Shown here piece by piece: positions 25,090 through 61,052 of a stretch of DNA of 64,000 nt. Made by a program: the position numbers and the translations under genes. Source of the stretch: Aotearoamyces nothofagi (lineage: Eukaryota > Ascomycota > Leotiomycetes > Leotiales > Tympanidaceae); NCBI GenBank assembly GCA_015345905.1, contig JADDTR010000016.1, forward strand, positions 624,631 through 688,630. Direction: 5' to 3'. The first letter of the stretch is position 1. Each line of letters begins with the position of its first letter. Under the pieces are notes generated by a model, which did not search any database, had not been told where the DNA came from, and saw only the letters and a list, made by a program, of their open reading frames with translations.

Positions 25090-28000
25090 ATGAAATTTCC
25101 AACATTTGTACTTTTAGCTGGACTTGTATTGGCTACATTTGCTGAAGATGTCCTCTTCGTCGACATGTTTGAGTACGACGAGTACACAGAGGCCATAACA
25201 GCATTAGGTCTCACCGCAAAGGTTGTCACAGAAGATGAATGGCGAGCAATGACTACAGCAGATTTTGCTGCCTTCAAAGCCATTATTATCGCAGATCCAG
25301 AGTGCAGCTATGACATTTCAGACCTGCAGTTCCTTGACGATACCAAAGCCGTCTGGTCACCAGCTATCCAAGGCAACATTGTGCTTATTGGCAAGTTCTC
25401 TTCATGAATGGATGCTACATAAATCCTGACAATCATCACCAGGCACCGATCCCAGTGGCCACTACGATTCAGAACCAGGTGCCCAAGTTCTCATCGACAA
25501 CACCATTCAATTCGCCATCGCTGGTGTCTCTTCAACTGGTGCTCCCCTCACTGGACTCTACCTTTCCCTCTCTTGCTACTACACCGCTATCAAGACCGCA
25601 ACCCTCTCGATCCTCTCCGAGTTCGGCAATTTCGCTATCCAGGGCAACCTCAACTGCTACGACGACATCCACATCGTCGCCTCCTCTCCAGCAATTCCAA
25701 CGCTCAGCGATGCCGACTTGTCTGATTGGGATTGCAGCGTCCACGAGGTTTTCTCGAGCTTCCCATCATCTGGAATAAACGGCTTCCAAGCACTGGCTAT
25801 TGCCAGGAATTTTGTCACCACTGGCACTCAGACATATGGTGATGGTAGTGTTGGCGTCCCGTATATCCTTACTCGTGGCGCGACTCCGGTCGGTTGCGGT
25901 GATGGCATATGGAATCCTGCTCTCGGTGAGGAATGTGATGATGGGAATACCATTTCTGGTGATGGCTGTTCCGTGAGCTGTAAATGCGAATCTGGTACGC
26001 CGGTTGGTGATGGAACGTGTAGCGGAGGAGCAGGTACCTTGCCGGCGTTGTTGTCAGCATCAGAATCATCAACGGCATCAGCATCGGCAACACTATCATC
26101 GACTTTATCATCATCGACTTTATCATCATCAACTTTATCATCATCATTACCACTCTCGTCTTCATATCCATCATATTTATTATCTGCCATCTCCGTGCCC
26201 TCCAATTCGTCGTCAACATCGACTTCAACCACTCCTACCATTTCCCAATCACCTATCTCCATCTCCTCAAAAATATCTACAACGCCCGTACCTTCAGACG
26301 TATCCGGATCTTCTGCTCCATGTAATAATTCCACCTTCTCGTCTTCCCCTACGAGCGCGAATGCTGCAATAACTTCTGCAACGGGACCGAGCTCAAGCTT
26401 TTCCGGAAGCTCTGGATCGCCAAATTCGCCAGTTTTATCTATATCCACTGTCTTATCAAGTCCATCGATGAGCTCTGTTTCCTTAGGCGCATTGGGATCT
26501 TCCGTGCCATATAGTAGCTCGACCTCCTCGTCTCCTCCTACGAGTACGAACATTATAATAAGCTCTACAACAGGATTTAGTTTCAACTTTTCCAGCACTT
26601 CTGAATCGTCCACCTTTTTGGATATATCTACAACCTCTATCTCATCCGATGTATTTGGATCTTCTATACCATACAATAACTCGAGCTTCTCATCTCTCCC
26701 TACGAGCGCGGATGTTGTAAGCTCTGAAACGCAATTGAGTTCAAGCTTTGCTAATATTTCCGGATCGCCAACCTCATCAAGCATATCTACGACCGCTGTC
26801 TCTTCAGGTCTATCTGCAACCTCTGTCTCAATAGATCCATTCAGATCTTCCGTGCCACATATCAACTTTGCCTTCTTGTATGCCTCTTCAAGTACGAATG
26901 CTATAAGCTCTACAATAGGACTTGGTTCTAGCTTTTCCAGCATTTCCGGATCGGCGACGATTTCAGATCTATTTACAACCTCTGTCTCTTCAGATGTATC
27001 CAGATCTCCTATACCATACCGTAACTCAACCTTCTCAACCCCTCCTATAAATCCAAACGTTGTAAGCGCTACAATGGGATCCAGTTCAAGTTCTAGCATT
27101 GCTGGATCAGAAGCCTCTTCAGGTCTATCTACAACTTCTGTCTTATCAGGCCTACCCACGACTCCTATATTATCAAGTTTATCAACAACGTCCGTCCCCT
27201 CAAGTATATTCGGGTCACCAATGCCATTTTCTAACTCGACCCTCTTGTCTCCCTCCTCCAGTGCAAGCTTTTTGATAAATTCTGTCACGGAGTTGAATCT
27301 GATACTTTCTGGAATTTCCGGACCGCCTGCAACCTCTGTCTCTTCGAGTGTATCTACAGCCTCTATTAGCTCTGGTAACTCCAAATCTCCCATAGCAATT
27401 TCTAACTCATCCTTCTCATCTCCGTTCACGAGTACGGACGTTGTCATAAGCTCTGCCAAAAAGTTGGATTTAGTCTTTTCTAGAGTTCCTGGGTCGCCTA
27501 TCTCTTCAGATCCATCCATATCTTCGGCCTCCTCAGATGTATCCGGATCACTCGTACCGTATGGTAACTCGACTTTCTCGTCTCTCCCCGCGGGAACGAG
27601 CATTGTAATAAGCGCTACCACGGAGTCGAGTATAGCCATCAGGTACCCTCTGCACTACAATTCTCAGACCAAAGCCTTCTCTAACCATTATCAGCACTTT
27701 GAATACGCCTTCCTATGTAACGCCCACATTGGCCAATGATCCCAAGGTCATCGGGGTAGAAATCATCATCTATATCACAGTCATCAAGTCCTATACCACA
27801 AACGGGCTAACAACAAGTTCGTCTCCCATCCTCCTTCCCTTTATATCCTCTCCATCTCCAGCACCGAAACTAACACCCATCAAGTCACAAACTTTGTAAC
27901 CACCACCTACTCGACAACCACCAAACCCATCCGTGACATCCAAATCCCCGGCTTCCCATGCTACATCTGCGCTCTCTCAAGCGCCGGCATCGACTATCTC

Positions 28001-45963: not shown

Positions 45964-47475
45964 ATGGCGTTCCAGGTGTGGCTAAAATGCTTGAAACGAG
46001 ACGTCAAGGCCGTAAAGACGTCATTAGAAGGAAATAAGCTGTTGAGTAGAGAGGAGAAAATTCGGGAAAGCGATGTGGACGGTGCGTCTCCATAGCTGTA
46101 GCAGGGTTCTCATAACTGACAGTAAATAGGGTATATGCTGATTCCTACTGTATCTCTCCAGAGTCTTGAGGCCGGTGGTCAACAGTCAAAAGAGGACCTC
46201 CTGGCAAAAATTTGTCTCTCTCAACAATTCGCAGGCGAAATTGATGTCGTGTATCTGCCCTTGAGCGGTTCGGCAGAAACGAGGACCAACGGCGTAAAAG
46301 AATCTATTCATCGGTGGCTAAACGAGCTGCCTATAGAGCTGCTTGAACTGATAAATGTTTCGATTGGCGACCTGGAAGATCAAGCCCCAAAACGCTGGTC
46401 AATCTACCGGCCCATGCTGCTCCTACCAGCTGGCAGTTTCCAATCCCTGGCGTGGGTGTCTTTGCTACAGCATGCAAAGAAGCTCCAACGGGATGAACTA
46501 TTCAAGACCATTCTAGATGCCGTATCAAAAAAGGACGGTGGACAGGCTCTCACGCATCTAGCCATCAACTGCGGTATTCCGCTTAACAAAGACTCAGCAA
46601 CATCCAAGGATGAGAATATCTTGCGTAGTCCGTCAGGCCTGATAATTCTCTATGGAGATTTTGGACCGGCATTTGCTGGTTCTGTGCCTGCCGAGAAGGA
46701 TTTTGAAGACGCTTTTTGGGTAAGTACAAAGCAGAATGGGATATACCAAACGTGGGCTCCACGGTATACTATGTTCTCACGGGGGAATGTCAAAGAGAAA
46801 GCAAGGGTTAAATCGTTCCATGATGCTGATATTGAGACGAGTTCGATGAGGAAAGAGGCAGGATCTTGGCTCGGGAATGCTGCTGCGGTAGATTTATACG
46901 CCGGGATTGGGTACTTCGCATTCAGCTATGCGGATATGGGGATGGCATGGGTGTTATGTTGGGAGATCAATCCCTGGTCCGTAGAAGGTCTTAGGCGTGG
47001 AGCCTTGAAAAATGGATGGAAGGTTAGAGTTATCAAAGGGGAAGAGCTAGAGAAGCCGCTGATGGAAGTGCTTGGTGAAGATAATGGAATTTTAGTGTTC
47101 GAAGAAGGCAACGAGAATGCTGCTGTGAAGGTTGAACAATGGAGACTGAGACAGAGAGGGCATGGACAGGCCGTGCTGGGAGAGGTCCTGCACGTTAACT
47201 GTGGGTTCTTGCCTACCAGCGACCTGAGTTGGCACAGTGCTTGGGAAATTGTCTCGAGACGGAGAAGTGGATGGTTGCATCTGCATGAGAATGTGGGTGT
47301 CCATGATATTCAAACGAGAAAGAAGGAAATCGAGGACAAGTTCCGAGCGTGGGCTAAAGAGGAAGGTTCACCACCTGTGGAGGTCGAACATGTCGAGCTC
47401 GTAAAGACCTTTGCGCCTGGTGTATGGCATTGTGTGTTTGATGTATATGTTGGACCTCGCTCGATGAATCTATAG
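45964..47475 (+). CDS. tRNA wybutosine-synthesising protein 2 (TYW2/TRM12)
   Basis: Transfers the alpha-amino-alpha-carboxypropyl group of S-adenosylmethionine to yW-86 at position 37 of tRNA-Phe, the second dedicated step of wybutosine synthesis. Two exons (45964-46081, 46130-47475) give 487 residues. The N-terminal part carries the conserved LLLPAGSFQSLAW-type segment, and WAPRYTMFSRGNVKEKAR precedes the SAM site. The Rossmann motif is AAVDLYAGIGYFAFSYADMG (about residue 285-305), with Glu in CWEINPWSVEGLRRG binding the SAM ribose. The end, VKTFAPGVWHCVFDVYVG, is typical. Splicing the first exon adds MAFQVWLKCLKRDVKAVKTSLE, which begins like other fungal TRM12 proteins. Confidence 0.9.
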
Positions 47476-49679: not shown

Positions 49680-50999
49680 ATGTGCCACGTTTCAGCAGTA
49701 AACAGATCGAGAAGGGATGGATGATAGTGGATTGCATCGAGCTTTTACCAAAAGCTAATGACTAAGCCAGGGGGTTTTCTCCGCGATCGAAGACATTAAG
49801 CATAATCGTGCCTATCAATTCAGGAGGTCCTTCTTGCCACGGAGTGTGGACGGAGTGGAGTCACGGGAGTTTAAGCAGCATACTAACTTATCGTTGGGAA
49901 TGCAGGGAAAGGGCCCTCGACCCTCAAGCGCATGCTCGCTACAGTGCACGCGTCGGTTAGACATTCCACACATAACGTGCCCTCGAAGCCGAATTGTGAA
50001 TGGTTGTTGGCCGCAAACAGCGAGAGTTTATAGGAAGTGCTATCAACATGCGAAGTACGGATGGCGGCGGGGATGGCGATACATGGCGGTGGGTGGCACG
50101 ATGCTATCGGGGATATATGTCGGGAGAGGCTAAGTGGCTGAAGCCCGGCGGTCCTGCTAGACGGTTTGGAGCCTCCATTCCCAGAAGAATTGGCCGAGTT
50201 GGGATTTGTGTCTAAAGACGCGCGAGGCAAGAGCCCCGAAGGTTAATTTCACGTTACTTATCCGTACACACCCCTATGGGCGTAAGGACTAAGCGACACA
50301 CCCCAGCACACTACACACACACCTTAATATTCTCGCACTTCAATCTCACTACACGGCCACCAGCCGCTACGATGTCTCATTCCTAAACGGAAACACGTGT
50401 TGGATTCTTTTGGCTGTGTCGAGATGGCCTTCCTTGTCGTCTTCCGCCGCTGCTACGTGCCGGCTAATCTGCACCTCATTCCGCCCGGCTCAGCTTCCTG
50501 ATCTGTATCCGCTCGTTGATATTATCTTGCTGTTCGCAGACATTATTATACCAGGGCATGTTCTCCGGCCAACGTGGTTTGTATGCATACAGTATAGCAG
50601 CCTTTCTCATCGGAACGTTCTCTGCGATTGCGCCTCTGCGTCATTCCATCTCGATCTTCTAGTTTCGTGTATGTGCTCCCTCTGTGGATCGAGCATCAGT
50701 GACGAAGAATGGCCTTGAATACTTTCATTGTACGTTTTCGGCATCCTTGGCCGCTGTAGCCACTACCACGGCATCTCCAAGTCCTTCGTCTCAAGAGATC
50801 TTTCGGGTCTAGGAACTCCCGAAAGTGGCAATAGATCTTTTGTACTTTTGCTAGTTGTTCTTTCTGTAAATATCTTCATATGTATTATGCTCATCCGTCG
50901 TGAGCCTCATGTTATCGCATCGTTTTAGTCGCACTCCTATAAGCACCAACGAGGCCGAATACAACAACTCTGAGGTGGACTTCGATACCGGCCATCATT
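49680..50999. other. Intergenic region upstream of GH128
   Basis: 1.3 kb with no supported gene. Short frames at 49834-50133 and 50410-50718 lack recognisable features. It contains the ORC6 3' UTR and the GH128 promoter. Confidence 0.45.
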
Positions 51000-52137
51000 A
51001 TGCGGCAATCCTTAATCTTCGCAGTGGCCTTGACGCTCTTGCCGTATTCCTTCGCTGCAAATAGCAGCTCCTTACAAACAACCTCACCTAAACGAGGTCT
51101 TGTATACGTACCGTCGTCAATATACCCGGACGACGATTATATTTGGGTCAAGAATACGTCAGACCTAACCTGGTACTACAACTACGTGGGTTATCCTACC
51201 CTGAAATATGAAAATTACACCGACTTTGAATTCATTCCCATGCTCTGGGGCGCTCCCACGTCGACATCCGACACCACCTTCCTCAAAAACGTCACTGCCC
51301 AAGTCTCCGGCGGCGCGAATATAACCTATGTAATGTCCTTCAACGAGCCCGATGGCACCACAGCCACCGGAGGTTCGAACGTATCTCCCTCACTAGCAGC
51401 AAGGACATGGCAGAGAGAGCTCGAGCCATTACGGGATCTGGGTATATCTTTGGGTGCACCAGCCGTGACTGGATCAGACACTGGATTGACCTGGCTGTCA
51501 GAATTCTTTACCTACTGCGACGGGAACTGCACAGCGGATTTCTTGCCAATCCATTGGTATGGCTCTTTCGATGGCCTCGCCAGTCATATCGGAGAGGTTG
51601 AGGCGGCATATCCGGATTTGAAGATCTGGGTTACTGAGTTTGCCCTTACTTATGCTACGTTGCAAGATACGCAGACATTTTTTAATACGAGTTTGGAATA
51701 TTTCGATAGGCTTGCGTAGGTCTCCCATCCTAGTCCATTTTCCCGTATCCACATCCAAATCAATAGTAGCATATTCATGAGAGAACAACAACACAAAATC
51801 AAGACAGAAGACTAACTTTTTCAATAGGAATATAACTCACTACTCTTACTTTGGCGCCTTCCGCTCCGATGTATCAAACGTTGGATACAACGCCACCTTT
51901 CTCACGCAAGACGGCCTCCTAACAGACATTGGCTCCTGGTATCTCGGCGGCAACGCAACAGGAAATATCCCCCTCGGCTCCTCATCAACAACCAAATCGA
52001 ACGCGACAGCCACGGTAACTGTGAGCGCGGTTAACACTTGGTTCATCCCGACCAGCGCTGCTACCCCCGTACCGAACCTCAAAGAGGCCGCTATGGGCAT
52101 CGGAATTGCGGCGCTGGGATTTGCTGCGCTTATATAG
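51000..52137 (+). CDS. GPI-anchored GH128 beta-1,3-glucanase-like protein
   Basis: Predicted endo-beta-1,3-glucanase of the Asl1-like GH128 family, probably remodelling the fungal wall. Two exons (51000-51715, 51828-52137) give 341 residues. Parts: signal peptide (MRQSLIFAVALTLLPYSFAA); a TIM-barrel with YNYVGYPT and FIPMLWGAP; the acid/base glutamate in MSFNEPDG (Glu116); HWYGS; the nucleophile in VTEFAL (Glu213); and ITHYSYFGAFR, formed across the splice. Several N-glycosylation sequons are present. The end is a Ser/Thr linker followed by GIGIAALGFAALI, a hydrophobic tail fitting a GPI signal, so the protein should sit at the plasma membrane or wall. It lies next to two other wall-related genes. 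Confidence 0.88.
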
Positions 52138-53094: not shown

Positions 53095-56000
53095 TTACCA
53101 AGTAAACATCATCAATGCCGGGTTTAGTAATACAGGTAAAAAGAAATGGCTTGCAACAATCGTCACCAACGGCCAAATCGCTGTGAAGAAGTCGATTCTC
53201 CAAAACACGGGGAAGACCGTAGCGCCACAGATCATGAGTGCCGTGCAACTGAGGCAAAACAAAAGGGTATACTTGAATCTGGTGAATATACGTGGCAATT
53301 CGATGAAGAACGTGGTGTCTTCGCTCTCTTTAGATGTTGCACCCCAAGACATTTCAATCGACAGCATGTGGCAGACTAAGGCCTCGGATACGTGCAGACT
53401 GATGCCGCCGAGGAAAACAACGAGCAGGACGATCCATTTGAAATTCTCGAGAAGTGAGCCGAAAAACCCACGGCCTTCGGCACGGTACCGCAATACGGCA
53501 AGTGCGACGTTACCCATGGCTGTGAAAACGACGATGATGGCGAAGTAGACCTCGAAAGAATTGACGTAGAAATGATCCAGATAGCCATTCAACCATCCTA
53601 TAATGAAATAATTCAACAAAGTGGAAACCCAAGCAAAGCCGATGGCATAATATGTACCAATATATGCTTGGATAGTTATTTTGCTGCCAATCGGCATGCT
53701 AGACATCCAAAAGGTCTTGATCAAAGGTGTAAATGGTCCGCGCTTGAGCCAGTATTTCATCGGATGGAAGATCATCTCGTTACAGCCATACGCATATTTC
53801 TCCCACCGTGCAAGCTCGTCGTACACTGTCAATGAAACACCTTCTTTGAAGCCGTCGTTGGCGTATGCAGCGAGACGGACGACATATCCGTTAGTTTGCA
53901 AGCGGAGGGCCATATCGAAATCCTCGGACACATGTGCCTCAGACCAGAAACATTCGTAACCGTTCTCTTCATCGTAAAAGCCAATTTCTTGGAGAGCTGA
54001 CCAGCGCAGGAAGGCATTGTGTCCAACAAAGGCAGATACATCCCCTGCGGCAACGGCAAAGCGAATAGCAGTGTATACGAGGTTAGTGAAGAAGGTGATA
54101 CCGTTTTCGAAGTAAGATGTTGTCACGTTCATAACACCGCAGGAGAATTGAAGAATAGCCACACGTGGGCATTGATTCATTTCGCTGACAGGATCGATCA
54201 GACAGTCTTCAGGGACACGAGTGTCCGAGTCAATGAGGAGGACATAATCGCCGATTCGAATGTTGCCAACCGCCCAAGTACGGCCGCCATCTTCTTCAAT
54301 AATAGCATCGAGACAATCCCGGTAGCAGGCATCCTCTTCTTCAGCAGTCCAACTTGGATGGCGGTCAATTGTCAAGAGTTTCTCCTCGACTCTGTTAGAG
54401 ATAGCCATGGCATAATTCATGTTTGATGCCTTCTTAAATTTTCCCTTTCTAAGGAAGAGCCTTTCGCCTTTTTCTTCCTCTGGATTTAAGTTTTCGGCCG
54501 GCCTAGCGACCCAGCCAATATTGTGCCTAATGTAAAATTCTTGCCTTTGTTCAGCATCTTTAGCTGAAAGGAGCTGCATGCCGTCGTCGTTAACGAATAT
54601 GTTTGCAGTCCCTCCTTGCTCTTCATACGTATTTATGGCAGCCTTAATCGACAGAACTGTAGGTTCAATAACTGTATGAAGTCCTTCTTTGTAAATTGGA
54701 CATTGGATAGTGACATGAGGAAGGGGACCATGTTCGCGCTTCAAGCGAGTTGGCGGAAGTGCTGAATAGAATTTGGAATTCATCTTCATTTGACCAACTG
54801 GACCAAACATTTGTGTGAGATTTCCTACCAGTGCTTGTGCGAAGAACTATATCATGTAAGCCTTATACTTTTTATGTCCTATGATAGCATTACTTACCAT
54901 AGTAATGTATATTTGAAACGGAACAACGATAATTAAGGCTAGACGCGCATAATTCCCGGTGATTTTGACTTCTTCAGCTAACTGTCGCGCACCCAGTCCC
55001 ATGAGGGTGAGAACCAACGCAACAGTAAAGGCCACCATAACCGCACTAAGAAGCATAATTGGTCGCTTTTGAATGTCGCCCATTTCAAGATCATCATTAT
55101 CGGTGACGATAGTATGAGGAACAGCCAAACTACCTTGAATCCCACTGCTTTTTCCTTTCTCTGAATCTTTTTCCGAACTTTTCTCCGAGCCTTTCTCCGA
55201 ACCTCTCTCCGAGTTAGGTTGATTGTTTTTCTCGTCGTAATGAATGGGCTCGTTTAGAGTATTCTCTAATTCCTCTACCTCCCCTGCTTCCTTTATTGCC
55301 CCTGTCGGATTATGGATTTTTTGATCTCGACTAATCGTATCCTTTTTCGTACGACCAACAACAAGCTCTTGAAGAAAGTCTCTTAATGAGTTTATTCCAA
55401 CGAATTGTTCTTCCAATTCATTCCAAGGTGGATTGGAGAAAAAGATACGCTCGTTTATATCTCGTTGTGTATGCGTAACTGCATCTATCGCCTCTTTCGT
55501 TGATCGGTTTCTAATCAGGCACCAGCCGTGAGGGAGGTATTCTACTTCGTTTCTAGCCAGTTTCATAATCTAGATAGAATCAGTTTAAGAACTCGCCATA
55601 AACTGAAGTTGCTTACTTCATCTACATCGCCAACTTCAACAGCATCACACTTAGTAATCACTCCTATGGTTCGTACTCCTAAAGGATCAGCCTTTTTCGC
55701 AATTTGAAATGCCTCTAGGTTACTGGATCTATTCGTCGCATCTATCACGGCCCTATTGAATATAAGTATGCTACAAATTTAGTCGCAAAGAGTACGTACA
55801 GTATGATATTATTAGGGTCATCAACAAAACTGGAAATAACGTCTTCAATCATAGATATGTCCTCCTTAGTCTGGTATATGGTCGGGTCTGACCGTGTTAG
55901 AAATGGTATACTAGCAAGTAGGGTGACTTACTACGACAGAATCCTGGGAGATCCACGACGCAAAGCGGTTGATATTCCGGGCCTGATATTTCGATTTTCA

Positions 56001-56743
56001 GGATGCTATCAGAAAAACGCCTGTAGGAGCCGGATTGAAGAATCCCCATTCGTTTGGTGGCCTAAGCTATCAGCATTTGGTATTCCACAGTACAGAAGTT
56101 GACTTACACCAGCTAAAATATTTGCAAAATTCTCGCCATCGAACGTGTCCTTGCTAAGGAAAGTCGTGGATGAAATAAGAATTGGTCCCGATGCGAGCTC
56201 CACAGTTTGAAGAAGTCCGGGGACAATGAAAGCCTTGACACATGGGAACTCGTCTGGAGCATTACGAAGAATAACTTGGGTTGCAAAGCGAGTGCAGAGT
56301 TGGTGGGAGACAGGAAATGCCAATCCTGACAAGCCCTCAAGCAAAGAAGACTTGCCGCTTGTCCGATTACCAACAACTACAATCTGTCGACACAAGTCTA
56401 GTTAGCTCATTTGGATACATTGTAATAAAGTTGCGTGCTGGTAAGTACTGACCTTAGGACCACAGCTCATCTCGTTGGCAGATAATTCGTACAGTCTCTC
56501 GATGAGCCCGATGACTCCATCATTGCTAACTTCTTCTCCTGCATCTGAGATTGACATGATGCTAGCTTCCTTACTCTTTTGAAGAGACCGCATGCTATAC
56601 GGGGTCGACGGTACACTATTCGACCGTGACGTGTTACTTGTCGAGTCTGGTATCATTATTTCCGCCATGCCGGGGCGCGCCATCAAACTGGCCCTCCTGT
56701 CGGCCAGTGAATTCCTAATTGCACTATTCGTCCTTAACGCCAT
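53095..56743 (-). CDS. Dynamin-type GTPase domain fused to a GT2 polysaccharide synthase
   Basis: Seven exons on the minus strand (56743-56453, 56383-56108, 56061-55932, 55887-55800, 55752-55617, 55569-54898, 54846-53095) give 1114 residues. Residues 90-377 are a dynamin GTPase domain with every G motif: GNRTSGKSS (102-110), Thr128, DLPG (226-229), TKCD (295-298) and RNRS (327-330). The middle, PH and GED regions of dynamins are absent. A charged linker with a degenerate SEKGSEK repeat (about 425-447) leads to GT2. The GT2 half has two helices near 477-530, catalytic DSD (737-739), SEDFD (838-842) and RWEKYAYG (878-885), then several C-terminal helices. GT2 proteins of this kind are needed for growth on surfaces in Zymoseptoria and Fusarium; product unknown. 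One exon crosses the junction. Two genes would need the GT2 part to start at Met470. Confidence 0.85.
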
Positions 56744-57601: not shown

Positions 57602-57668
57602 AATGATTCAACGGATCAATGGGTCAATGGGTCAATGGGTTAATGGGTCAATGGGTCAATGGATCGAT
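57602..57668 (+). repeat. 9-bp minisatellite (TCAATGGGT), about seven copies
   Basis: Tandem copies of TCAATGGGT with slight variation at both ends. Confidence 0.85.
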
Positions 57669-58040
57669 GGATCATGGAATTGACAAGGGACTCTGTAGTC
57701 CTCGGTAGCCCGGCGCGTTCTCTCCGCAAGGGGGTGTGCGCATAGCTCTCGCTATCTCTCGCTGTAAACAAAGCAGCTAGACAAGCGCACGCACGGGGTG
57801 CCGCTAGCACCGGCCGCACTTCCTACGGTACCGTAGTGCCCTACCTTATTCCCTTATTCCCCCGTCCAGTCCGCCTCCACGGCCGCAAACAGCCAGATGA
57901 TGCCACTGACGGCTTGCGCGATCTCAAAAACCACCGCGGAGGAACAGCCGTCACGTCACAGCTGTCGAAATGCCACTCCTTAGGGTCTGCAGGCGCCGCC
58001 AACGGTGTGACCGAAGGCATGGCTGGTAACTGTGCTTAAA

Positions 58041-58092: not shown

Positions 58093-58855
58093 ATGACAGT
58101 CCATAGATTGAATGGCAGGCGAACTACCTTCCAGTATCCCCACTCTGCAGTTGTTTCCTGCTCTCTCGAAAGCTTTGGAGCGGCAATGGTCTCGCGTCAA
58201 ACGGCGCCTACACTCATATTCTTTACCGTCAACACCACCGCCACTATCATCATCACCATGGTGTACGTAGCGGTATGTACTGCTGTGAGTACTACAGTCC
58301 GCAAACAGACCAGTTTCCTATTCTGTATTATGTTTCCTAGTTCGCAATCATGGCCTGACTGGGCCTCTTCTGTCTTCTGTCTTGGTGGTGTGGGAACTCT
58401 AAATTTCATAGGGTGTCTCTAGTAGCCTTTTCCATGTTGATGTGGAATGGGCTTGTGTGGGCGATAGTGTCGATGGCACTTTCGATTGCCTATACGACAA
58501 TCAAATACTGGAACGTCACTGCTAGGTCCATCCTCGAGCACGACTGGTAGTGCCTATCGATGATCAAATCTGCTTGCATATCTTGTCTTGTGCCTGGCTC
58601 GGAACTTATCGTCATGTAAGTAATATCAATTGGTGCGCCTCACACCAGGTTGTGCTGTGCAGCTCGGAGCACAATATCCATTATCTTGGTCGCTGCATCT
58701 TTATATCGAGTACTCTAATTCATCGCGGTATTTCGGAAACAGGCACAATATCGCCATTGGCGGATGCTTGCACCCTCCTTTTCATAAAGCTGCAGTAGGG
58801 TTCAAGCAACTTTCTCGGAACCTGATATGTATCTCGGCATTCGCAAATTCCCGTT

Positions 58856-61052
58856 ATGACAGAGCCACTCCATACTCAAGGCGCCAACATGGCCGTTAAC
58901 TCGGGATCTTCAGCATCATCAATATCGGCTAGCAAAGAGGCTGAAGATCTCCTACGTGAAACCGAGCAAAATACCGAAGCCAACGAAACTACCGAACCCA
59001 TCGACATAGCACAAACTACAGCCCTGCCGTCTTCAGAACTATCAACAAGAAATAATTCAACAGATGCTGTACAAGGAAGATCCATCCCCGGAACCATAGA
59101 GCATGCCGAACGCGCGGTTCCAGAAGTACATTTTGAGCAATCAACCCGATCTCCATCACAACCAGACAGCCCGTTCGAATTCGCAGAGCCTGGGAGAGAA
59201 CCGTCTTTCACAGCTGCATACGGTGTGCAATTCTCCAATCCCTTCGAACCCCGTAGCACTTCTCTTCAGAGTTCAATAGAAGGGTCAAGACAACAATCGC
59301 GACAAGGTTCAGGGCAGGGCTCGGGGAGAGGTTCATGGCCGGGTTCAAGGCAAGGCTCGCTACATGGCTCGATACAAGGCTCACGGCATGGCTCGCTGTA
59401 TGGCTCGCGGCAAGGCTCGCGGCAAGGCTCACGGCAAGGCTCACGGCAAGGCTCGCGGCAAGGCTCGCGGCAAGGCTCAGTACAGGGTCTTCACGGGCTC
59501 TACATGCCGTTTGAAACTTCCCAGCACCTTAGATCATCTCTCAGGAGTCATTCTCATGCTGGAGTACGCACTCCAGAACCTGGTGTTCAAGGGGCGAGGA
59601 GTAACTCCTATGCTGGTCCTTCCACTCCAAGGAAAGGCTCCGGCTTAAGAAACTTCTATGAAGCATCAATACTTCCTCTGGAAAGCTCCAAATTTAGTTC
59701 AAGGACAGGATCTACTTTAGGTTTGCCGGAAAAAGTCGTCGATGAAAAGGACCCGACAACATATATATCAGAATATAAGGAGAACCCGAAAACAAAGTGG
59801 GGGCAGCAGCCTTATTTTCGCTCTCGTCGGATTAAGAAAGGAACAGCCGAGCGACCTGAATTGAAAGAGAATGATCCAAGAGAGAAATGGGTGACGATAA
59901 TACCAATCATTGGCTTTCTCGTGGGATTGGGAATTGTCGGTCTTCTAACCTGGGTTGGTCTTCGCTCAGTTACAAACCATAAATACTGTTCTGTGCTTTA
60001 TGACGACTTCTCGCACGGTTTTAACCCGCATATTTGGACACAGGAAGTTCAGTGCGGAGGATTCGGGTTAGTTATCCCCAAATTCTTGCTCGTTTGTAAT
60101 ATAACAAACACTAACATGACCTAGTAATGGCGAGTTCGAGCAAACAACCGGCGACAACTCCAATGTCTTCGTGCGTGACGGTCAGCTAATCATCAAGCCA
60201 ACCCTCCAGAATGCCACATTTCTGACCGAAGATTCCGTCACAAATCTTACCCTCGACGGCACCTGTACCTCGACGGAAGTCTCCGAGTGCCAGTTTACTA
60301 CTAACGTCACTGCCGACCTTATCCAAGCCCCCGTGCTCTCTGGCCGCATCAATACAAAAAACAGCATTGGTATCCGCTACGGCAAAGTCGAAGTTACAGC
60401 TAAAATTGCCGCTGGTGATTGGCTATTCTCTGGCATCTGGATGTTGCCGAACAATAATGCCTACGGCGTCTGGCCTAAATCTGGCGAGATCGATATCGCA
60501 CGTGGACGAGGAAACGACTACAGGTATCCCGGTGGCGGCAACAACGTCATCTCTAGCTCGCTGCACTGGGGCCCTGATAGCGACAATGATGGCTGGTGGC
60601 GCACAGATGCCAACGTGACGGCCTTACATACGACGTACGCGGACAAGTTCCACACCTTCAGTCTAGAGTGGAGCGAGAAGTATCTGTTCACATACATCGA
60701 TTCGCGTCTTATGCAAGCGATGTATACATCTTTCAACCAGCCACAGTGGGACCGGGGAAACTTTCCTGCAACGGATGCTAATGGGAATCAGCTTGTCAAC
60801 CCGTGGACTAATGGCACTGATGCAGCACCGTTTGATCAGACATTTTACCTGATTCTTAATCTGGCTGTTGGTTCCACTACTGGATCATTTAGCGACGGGT
60901 TGAGTAATAAGCCGTGGGTTGATACGAGTACGTCCGCGAGGTATGCATTTTGGCAGGCAAAGGATGACTGGTATCCAACCTGGCAAGATAACAATGATGG
61001 TGAGATGGTCGTGCAGAGAGTGAGGATGTGGAGGCAGTGTGACGGTGAGTAG
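58856..61052 (+). CDS. GH16 type II membrane protein with GSRQ repeats
   Basis: Two exons (58856-60066, 60125-61052) give 712 residues. Residues 1-345 are a cytosolic, disordered region with a GSRQ repeat array (about 143-210). One transmembrane segment follows (346-368, WVTIIPIIGFLVGLGIVGLL), and then an extracellular GH16 lectin/laminarinase-like fold. GH16 landmarks: RYGKVEVTAKIAAGDWLFSGIWMLP, then SGEIDIARGRGN (523-534), then SSLHWGP and FHTFSLEW. GH16 enzymes normally have E-x-D-x-(x)-E. Here Glu525 and Asp527 are present but the expected second Glu is replaced (Ala529-Arg530), so hydrolysis may be lost. Similar ER/Golgi or plasma-membrane GH16 proteins (Kre6/Skn1 style) serve beta-glucan assembly. 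A second Met at 58889 is an alternative start. The end (CDGE) lies at a possible GGTGAGT donor, so a further small exon is possible. Confidence 0.87.
59278..59486 (+). repeat. 12-bp coding repeat array (GGCTCGCGGCAA)
   Basis: About seventeen imperfect copies of a 12-bp unit encoding Gly-Ser-Arg-Gln. The copies near 59400-59480 are nearly identical, so they are young and probably variable in length between strains. The array lies in the cytosolic tail of the GH16 membrane protein. Confidence 0.85.

Follow-up and report, generated by a model that had tools for sequence, protein, structure and literature searches.

The window analysed here, a 64,000-nt stretch of contig JADDTR010000016.1 from Aotearoamyces nothofagi, carries a gene of seven exons in which a dynamin-type G domain and a GT2 polysaccharide synthase are read in a single frame. 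Rebuilt from the sequence, this fusion gene encodes a protein of 1114 aa and 124.7 kDa (Table 1). A glycoside hydrolase gene lies on either side of it, one with a PF11790 (Glyco_hydro_cc) domain, which we take to be family GH128, and one with a GH16 domain, whose 5′ end is ~2.1 kb from that of the fusion gene. The window genes with Pfam matches include those for a GH127 protein, a sugar transporter, a GH3 protein, an aldo-keto reductase, a ubiquitin hydrolase, Mre11, and a kinase. These Pfam-matched neighbours look like ordinary chromosomal genes and no Starship captain family was found by Pfam in the 16 further open frames scanned across the window, so a Starship setting is not favoured.

Table 1. 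Coordinates of the fusion gene, its parts, and its two hydrolase neighbours (window positions).
Feature	Position	Strand	Evidence
Complete fusion-gene coding sequence including the stop codon	53095..56743	-	Splice enumeration, translation
Exon 1: Met1, Ser-rich N-terminal tail, stretch ahead of the G domain (aa 1-97)	56453..56743	-	
Exon 2: first part of the G domain, P-loop GNRTSGKSS (56371-56345), CTR	56108..56383	-	Pfam, structure match, motifs
Exon 3: G domain with DLPG	55932..56061	-	Pfam, motifs
Exon 4: G domain	55800..55887	-	Pfam
Exon 5: G domain with TKCD	55617..55752	-	Pfam, motifs
Exon 6: end of the G domain (~aa 378), linker, first hydrophobic helix, start of the second	54898..55569	-	
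Lys/Glu/Ser linker, aa 379-477, 99 residues	55060..55356	-	
12-bp tandem repeat within the linker, 4.9 copies, in frame, SEKG-like units	55154..55212	-	
Exon 7: catalytic domain of the GT2 enzyme, then the hydrophobic helices of the C terminus (aa 532-1114)	53095..54846	-	Pfam, hydropathy
PF13632 match (aa 732-945): DSD 54231-54223, SED 53928-53920, ELARW 53817-53803	53605..54246	-	Pfam
PF11790 hydrolase, convergent, downstream, two open frames, presumably intron-joined	50943..52137	+	Pfam
GH16 (PF00722) neighbour, divergent, upstream, two open frames, presumably one spliced gene	58826..61052	+	Pfam

The translation of the GH16 neighbour contains a hydrophobic stretch and a long tail of Gly/Ser/Arg/Gln repeats. 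This tail, which precedes the domain (58826-60124, plus strand), includes a long run of GSRQGS repeats and gives no Pfam match at E ≤0.1. The GH16 domain itself (60120-61052, plus strand) weakly resembles an endo-1,3-1,4-beta-glycanase model (E 1.3e-7, 30.9 bits with a cut-off of 700). GH16 enzymes have the consensus ExDxxE, in which the second Glu is the acid/base; at this place the domain reads SGEIDIARGRGN, with Arg apparently standing for the second Glu, and the protein may differ in its catalysis or act in binding instead. Between the GH16 gene and the fusion gene we observe an 8-bp tandem repeat, TCAATGGG, in 8.4 copies (57608-57674). Elsewhere in the window, a 769-residue Ser/Thr-rich open frame (25430-27739, plus strand) matches DUF4215 at 22.7 bits, below the cut-off of 27, and the 608-residue open frame antisense to it (25828-27654, minus strand) probably results from repetitive codons. 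At 46126-47475 on the plus strand, an open frame matches TRM5/TYW2 methyltransferases weakly (23.4 bits, cut-off 28) and possibly encodes the tRNA wybutosine enzyme TYW2.

Gene model and the exon that bridges both halves

We enumerated GT/GC..AG combinations in the six intron slots and found that 78 of them preserve an open frame longer than 900 codons. The model used here has the best consensus donors (GTCAGT, GTAAGT, GTAAGT, GTACGT, GTAAGC, and GTAAGT), with introns of 44-69 nt and phases of 0, 0, 1, 2, 0, and 0 after exons 1-6; its frame opens at a Met1 in the context ACCATGG and closes with the stop at 53095. Among the combinations listed, the alternatives differ by splice sites, mostly weaker ones, and give ~1090-1117 residues with both halves still in frame. 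According to the original prediction, one spliced frame of 1114 codons with all exon phases in agreement holds the motifs GNRTSGKSS, DLPG, TKCD, and RNRS and then DSD, SED, and RW. The rebuilt model arrives at the same length, its seven exons bear out the agreement of the phases, and all of these motifs were found in its frame.

Exon 6 is a single unbroken frame that runs from the end of the G domain through the Lys/Glu/Ser linker to the first membrane helices. Since this exon alone bridges both halves, the junction is independent of the splice guess. When exon 6 (672 nt) was shuffled by single bases 20000 times, no shuffle stayed open, and the other two same-strand frames of the exon contain 14 and 13 stops; the open frame of exon 6 is not due to chance. 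For the linker, 22 of 20000 single-base shuffles stay open. Using a codon table trained on the remainder of the fusion gene and eight other open frames in the window, we found that the linker (aa 380-477) scores +0.148 with no stops in the proposed frame, the sole positive score of the six frames, the other five scoring -0.10 to -0.26 with 3-8 stops each. The period of the tandem repeat within the linker, 12 bp, keeps the reading frame. Frame, shuffles, and codon score thus confirm the earlier claim that exon 6 is uninterrupted across the junction.

The same exon bears on whether there is one protein or two. Two transcription or translation units could share exon 6, one for a stalk-less dynamin fragment and one for a GT2 protein that starts at Met470, in which case the fusion would be an artefact of conceptual splicing. 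The codon for Met470 (55083, context GAAATGG) has G at -3 and +4 and is placed 8 residues before the first hydrophobic helix, as this explanation would have it. Against it, no stop occurs from the G domain to the first helices, the codon use of the linker is coding-like, and Met1 has its own start context; we consider two units quite improbable. The open frame is real and intact and its architecture is unusual; its function we infer.

The dynamin part

The Dynamin_N domain (PF00350) is found at aa 98-296 with an E-value of 1.1e-22 (81.2 bits with a cut-off of 27), and GNRTSGKSS (102-110), DLPG (226-229), TKCD (295-298), and RNRS (327-330) lie in order along it and beyond. The fusion protein keeps the G1, G2, G3, G4, and G5-like motifs; PF00350 above its cut-off together with the G1, G3, and G4 motifs identifies a G domain of the dynamin superfamily. 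Searching solved structures with residues 1-446 gave 43 distinct sequences at E ≤0.01, the best of which are Mx1 (8.7e-27) and dynamin-1 (2.5e-21), followed by Vps1 constructs (1.1e-19 and 1.4e-19); Drp1, Mgm1, and OPA1 match more weakly. CTR in exon 2 aligns with the switch I Thr of Mx1.

Beyond the G domain the likeness to dynamins ends. Dynamin_M (PF01031) matches the full protein over profile positions 2-72 of 287 only, at 24.5 bits and under the cut-off of 28.5, and the exon 6 frame alone (54847-55569) matches the start of this profile with residues 2-71 at 27.0 bits (E 3.1e-6), slightly below the same cut-off. We take positions 2-72 of PF01031 to be the end of the G domain and not stalk. 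No stalk (the rest of Dynamin_M), lipid-binding domain, or GED was seen in the fusion protein by Pfam at E ≤0.1. The alignments to Mx1 constructs stop at residue 379 and those to dynamin-1 reach ~410, and the helix that follows the G domain may be partly or wholly retained. The "complete dynamin GTPase domain" first reported here therefore holds for the G domain, with at most the next helix, and does not extend to a stalk or GED. Because the stalk and GED are missing, we class the fusion as a mechanoenzyme domain joined to a GT2 synthase and not as a dynamin. The suggestion that it senses membrane curvature in the manner of a dynamin did not fare well: with PF01031 covered only over 2-72 of 287 positions and structure matches ending at ~379-410, dynamin-style collar formation or curvature sensing is unlikely, and we rejected both as the main reading since Pfam finds the stalk missing.

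Two explanations turn on this truncation. The G domain could be a functionless remnant left when a rearrangement set a broken Mx-like dynamin gene before a GT2 gene. The end of dynamin homology after the G domain and the low-complexity, repeat-expanded linker would fit such an origin, but the G motifs and the splice sites are intact and the first 378 codons stay open, features that decay would tend to break, and a remnant is in our judgement very improbable. Alternatively, polymers of Mx-like or Vps1-like dynamins at vesicle necks could draw in the protein through its G domain, and the synthase would then follow endocytic or secretory membranes in sorting or retrieval. Mx1, dynamin-1, and Vps1 constructs are indeed among the closest solved relatives; however, dynamin copolymerisation uses the stalk, which Pfam finds absent here, making this route highly improbable.

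The P-loop departs from that of the nearest relative, reading GNRTSGKSS here versus GDQSSGKSS in Mx1, with Gln and Ser changed to Arg and Thr. The replaced residues correspond to Q40 and S41 of dynamin-1, which help to position the water that attacks GTP as well as a monovalent ion. The new Arg is reminiscent of the arginine finger in atlastins and GBPs, which occupies another position. With Gln and Ser replaced, hydrolysis is not a given, and the GTPase may be slow or dead. This raises the reading that the fusion is real and that its G domain binds GTP but hydrolyses little or none of it, serving as a regulator or sensor that turns the synthase on or off in cis without clustering. Departure from Mx1 at these two residues favours it, as does retention of the GKSS core and TKCD, with which GTP binding is plausible. 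Retention extends, however, to the switch I Thr (CTR) and DLPG, which is beyond the needs of binding alone, and we hold such a switch to be unlikely.

The GT2 part and its membrane topology

Glyco_trans_2_3 (PF13632) is found at aa 732-945 with an E-value of 3.9e-50 (170.9 bits with a cut-off of 27), with DSD at 737-739, SED at 838-840, and ELARW at 875-879; the half also carries CPIYKE, NDDG, and GHN. The domain and its DxD, (S/T)ED, and xxRW motifs are those of a processive GT2 polysaccharide synthase, in which the canonical QxxRW is replaced by ExxRW (ELARW). Glu in place of Gln is a true departure, although members of the MdoH-like branch may not usually carry this Gln. The best NCBIfam matches of exon 7 are models of the bacterial glucan glucosyltransferase MdoH (OpgH), yet a distant relative only (NF003958, E 6e-9, 34.6 bits with a cut-off of 419), and PgaC_IcaA is weaker for the GT2 half (0.0013). 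By sequence likeness, the GT2 half is of the PF13632 type and distantly MdoH-like; the mixed-linkage glucan synthase Tft1/CelA was also considered as a relative. A single-sequence phmmer search with residues 440-1114 gave no solved-structure match at E ≤0.1, exon 7 had no PHROGs match at E ≤0.01, and an AlphaFold2 model of exon 7 built without an alignment has a mean pLDDT of 36.6.

A 19-residue hydropathy scan, which is crude and no trained predictor, marks hydrophobic stretches at ~478-496, 520-538, and several between 932 and 1109, and thus on both sides of the catalytic domain; a further stretch that it marks within the G domain, at 149-167, is probably false. Two N-terminal crossings and a cytoplasmic catalytic domain would place the G domain in the cytosol. 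The AlphaFold model of BcCps1 is described as having its catalytic domain in the cytoplasm, with one membrane helix at the N terminus and two at the C terminus (PMC9500679). Only one N-terminal crossing in the fusion protein would put the G domain away from cytosolic GTP.

Known relatives and a possible role for G-domain pairing

The nearest analogues in design are the class V/VII chitin synthases, in which a mechanoenzyme domain that hydrolyses nucleotides likewise stands N-terminal to a membrane synthase (PMC12653383). They differ in their parts: a myosin head (PF00063) with PF03142 there, a dynamin G domain with PF13632 here. Neither PF00063 nor PF03142 is among the Pfam matches of the fusion protein at E ≤0.1, so it is not a myosin-chitin synthase. 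With the Mx/dynamin superfamily the fusion protein shares GKSS, DLPG, TKCD, and RNRS, its best solved match being Mx1, but it is without a stalk or GED, has an altered P-loop, and is joined to a membrane enzyme. To our knowledge, the polymer made by fungal PF13632-type GT2 proteins is undefined.

ZtGT2, FgGT2, MoGt2, and Cps1 appear similar to the GT2 half in that they are membrane GT2 proteins with DxD and xxRW. The spacing from DxD to (Q/E)xxRW is 138 here versus 145 in MoGt2 (D156 and Q301; PMC6731526). MoGt2 is a 483-aa protein with QxxRW (PMC6731526), whereas the GT2 half here counts 637 aa from its first helix, has ExxRW, and has a G domain ahead of it. In MoGt2, DxD mutants are reported to behave like the deletion and a QxxRW mutant to be partly functional (PMC6731526). 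Two further papers describe subgroups of these proteins, King et al. a second ZtGT2 paralogue group in Leotiomyceta (PMC5653360) and a Botrytis study two GT2 subfamilies named Cps1 and Cps2 (PMC9500679). Passages on Gaeumannomyces report PHI-base matches to FgGT2 and to the dynamin Modnm3 in Starship cargo, with 50% or more of the Starship elements carrying a GT2 orthogroup; those passages do not state that the GT2 and Modnm3-like matches are one protein (PMC12134995).

The original prediction knew of no described protein with this architecture, and the literature likewise yielded no paper on a dynamin-GT2 fusion among the matches listed (full-text searches of open-licence papers, the matches judged by title and the opening of the abstract). 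The architecture may well be present already in annotated fungal proteomes. Exact short peptide patterns gave 1, 4, 1, and 13 pattern matches in viral contigs and 20 and 61 in genome contigs, with no confirmed relatives in either; the collections scanned are viral, bacterial, and archaeal, and these blanks carry no information on fungi.

The product would be one membrane protein in which a flexible, charged linker ties an N-terminal G domain to a pair of hydrophobic helices, followed by the GT2 domain and a C-terminal helix bundle. We infer that the gene is expressed, that the G domain is cytosolic, and that the polymer is exported through the helices. A dynamin without stalk and GED is left with GTP binding and the GTP-dependent, face-to-face pairing of two G domains. 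On its own, a G domain that lacks both regions should be unable to assemble into dynamin helices. GTP-loaded G domains could instead pair, linking neighbouring synthases to each other or a synthase to a full-length dynamin, and GTP hydrolysis would release the paired domains. GTP could thereby control the clustering of the enzyme and its retention at secretory vesicles or growth sites, by analogy with the myosin head, which clusters or positions class V/VII chitin synthases. The polymer would most likely be a beta-glucan-type wall polysaccharide or exopolysaccharide; the distant MdoH similarity and the GH16 and PF11790 neighbours hint weakly at this, and a beta-glucan-related product weakly fits the hydrolase neighbours.

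We put forward tentatively, at somewhat short of even confidence, that the G domains pair in a GTP-dependent manner and in this way cluster or position the synthase. In its favour are the consensus splice sites, both Pfam domains, the confinement of the Dynamin_M match to positions 2-72 of 287, the bridge formed by exon 6, and the coding-like linker, together with the G motifs, the Mx1, dynamin-1, and Vps1 relatives, the DSD, SED, and ELARW motifs, and the hydrophobic stretches. The Arg and Thr in the P-loop, the helix count of BcCps1, which makes us slightly less confident, the crudeness of the hydropathy scan, and a possible start at Met470 count against it. A bolder version is doubtful, namely that this is a second, independent mechanoenzyme-coupled wall synthase, in which a stalk-less G domain with an Arg-bearing P-loop pairs to gather GT2 synthases and so makes polymer output depend on the GTP state at the hyphal tip.

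Should the fusion be expressed, a dynamin-type GTPase and a polysaccharide synthase reside in one chain, and GTP control of wall synthesis would be open to point mutations in each half. The hydrolase neighbours offer a first guess at the polymer of PF13632-type fungal GT2 proteins. An expressed fusion would stand in parallel to the myosin-chitin synthases and would suggest that filamentous fungi harnessed mechanoenzymes more than once to place their wall synthases.
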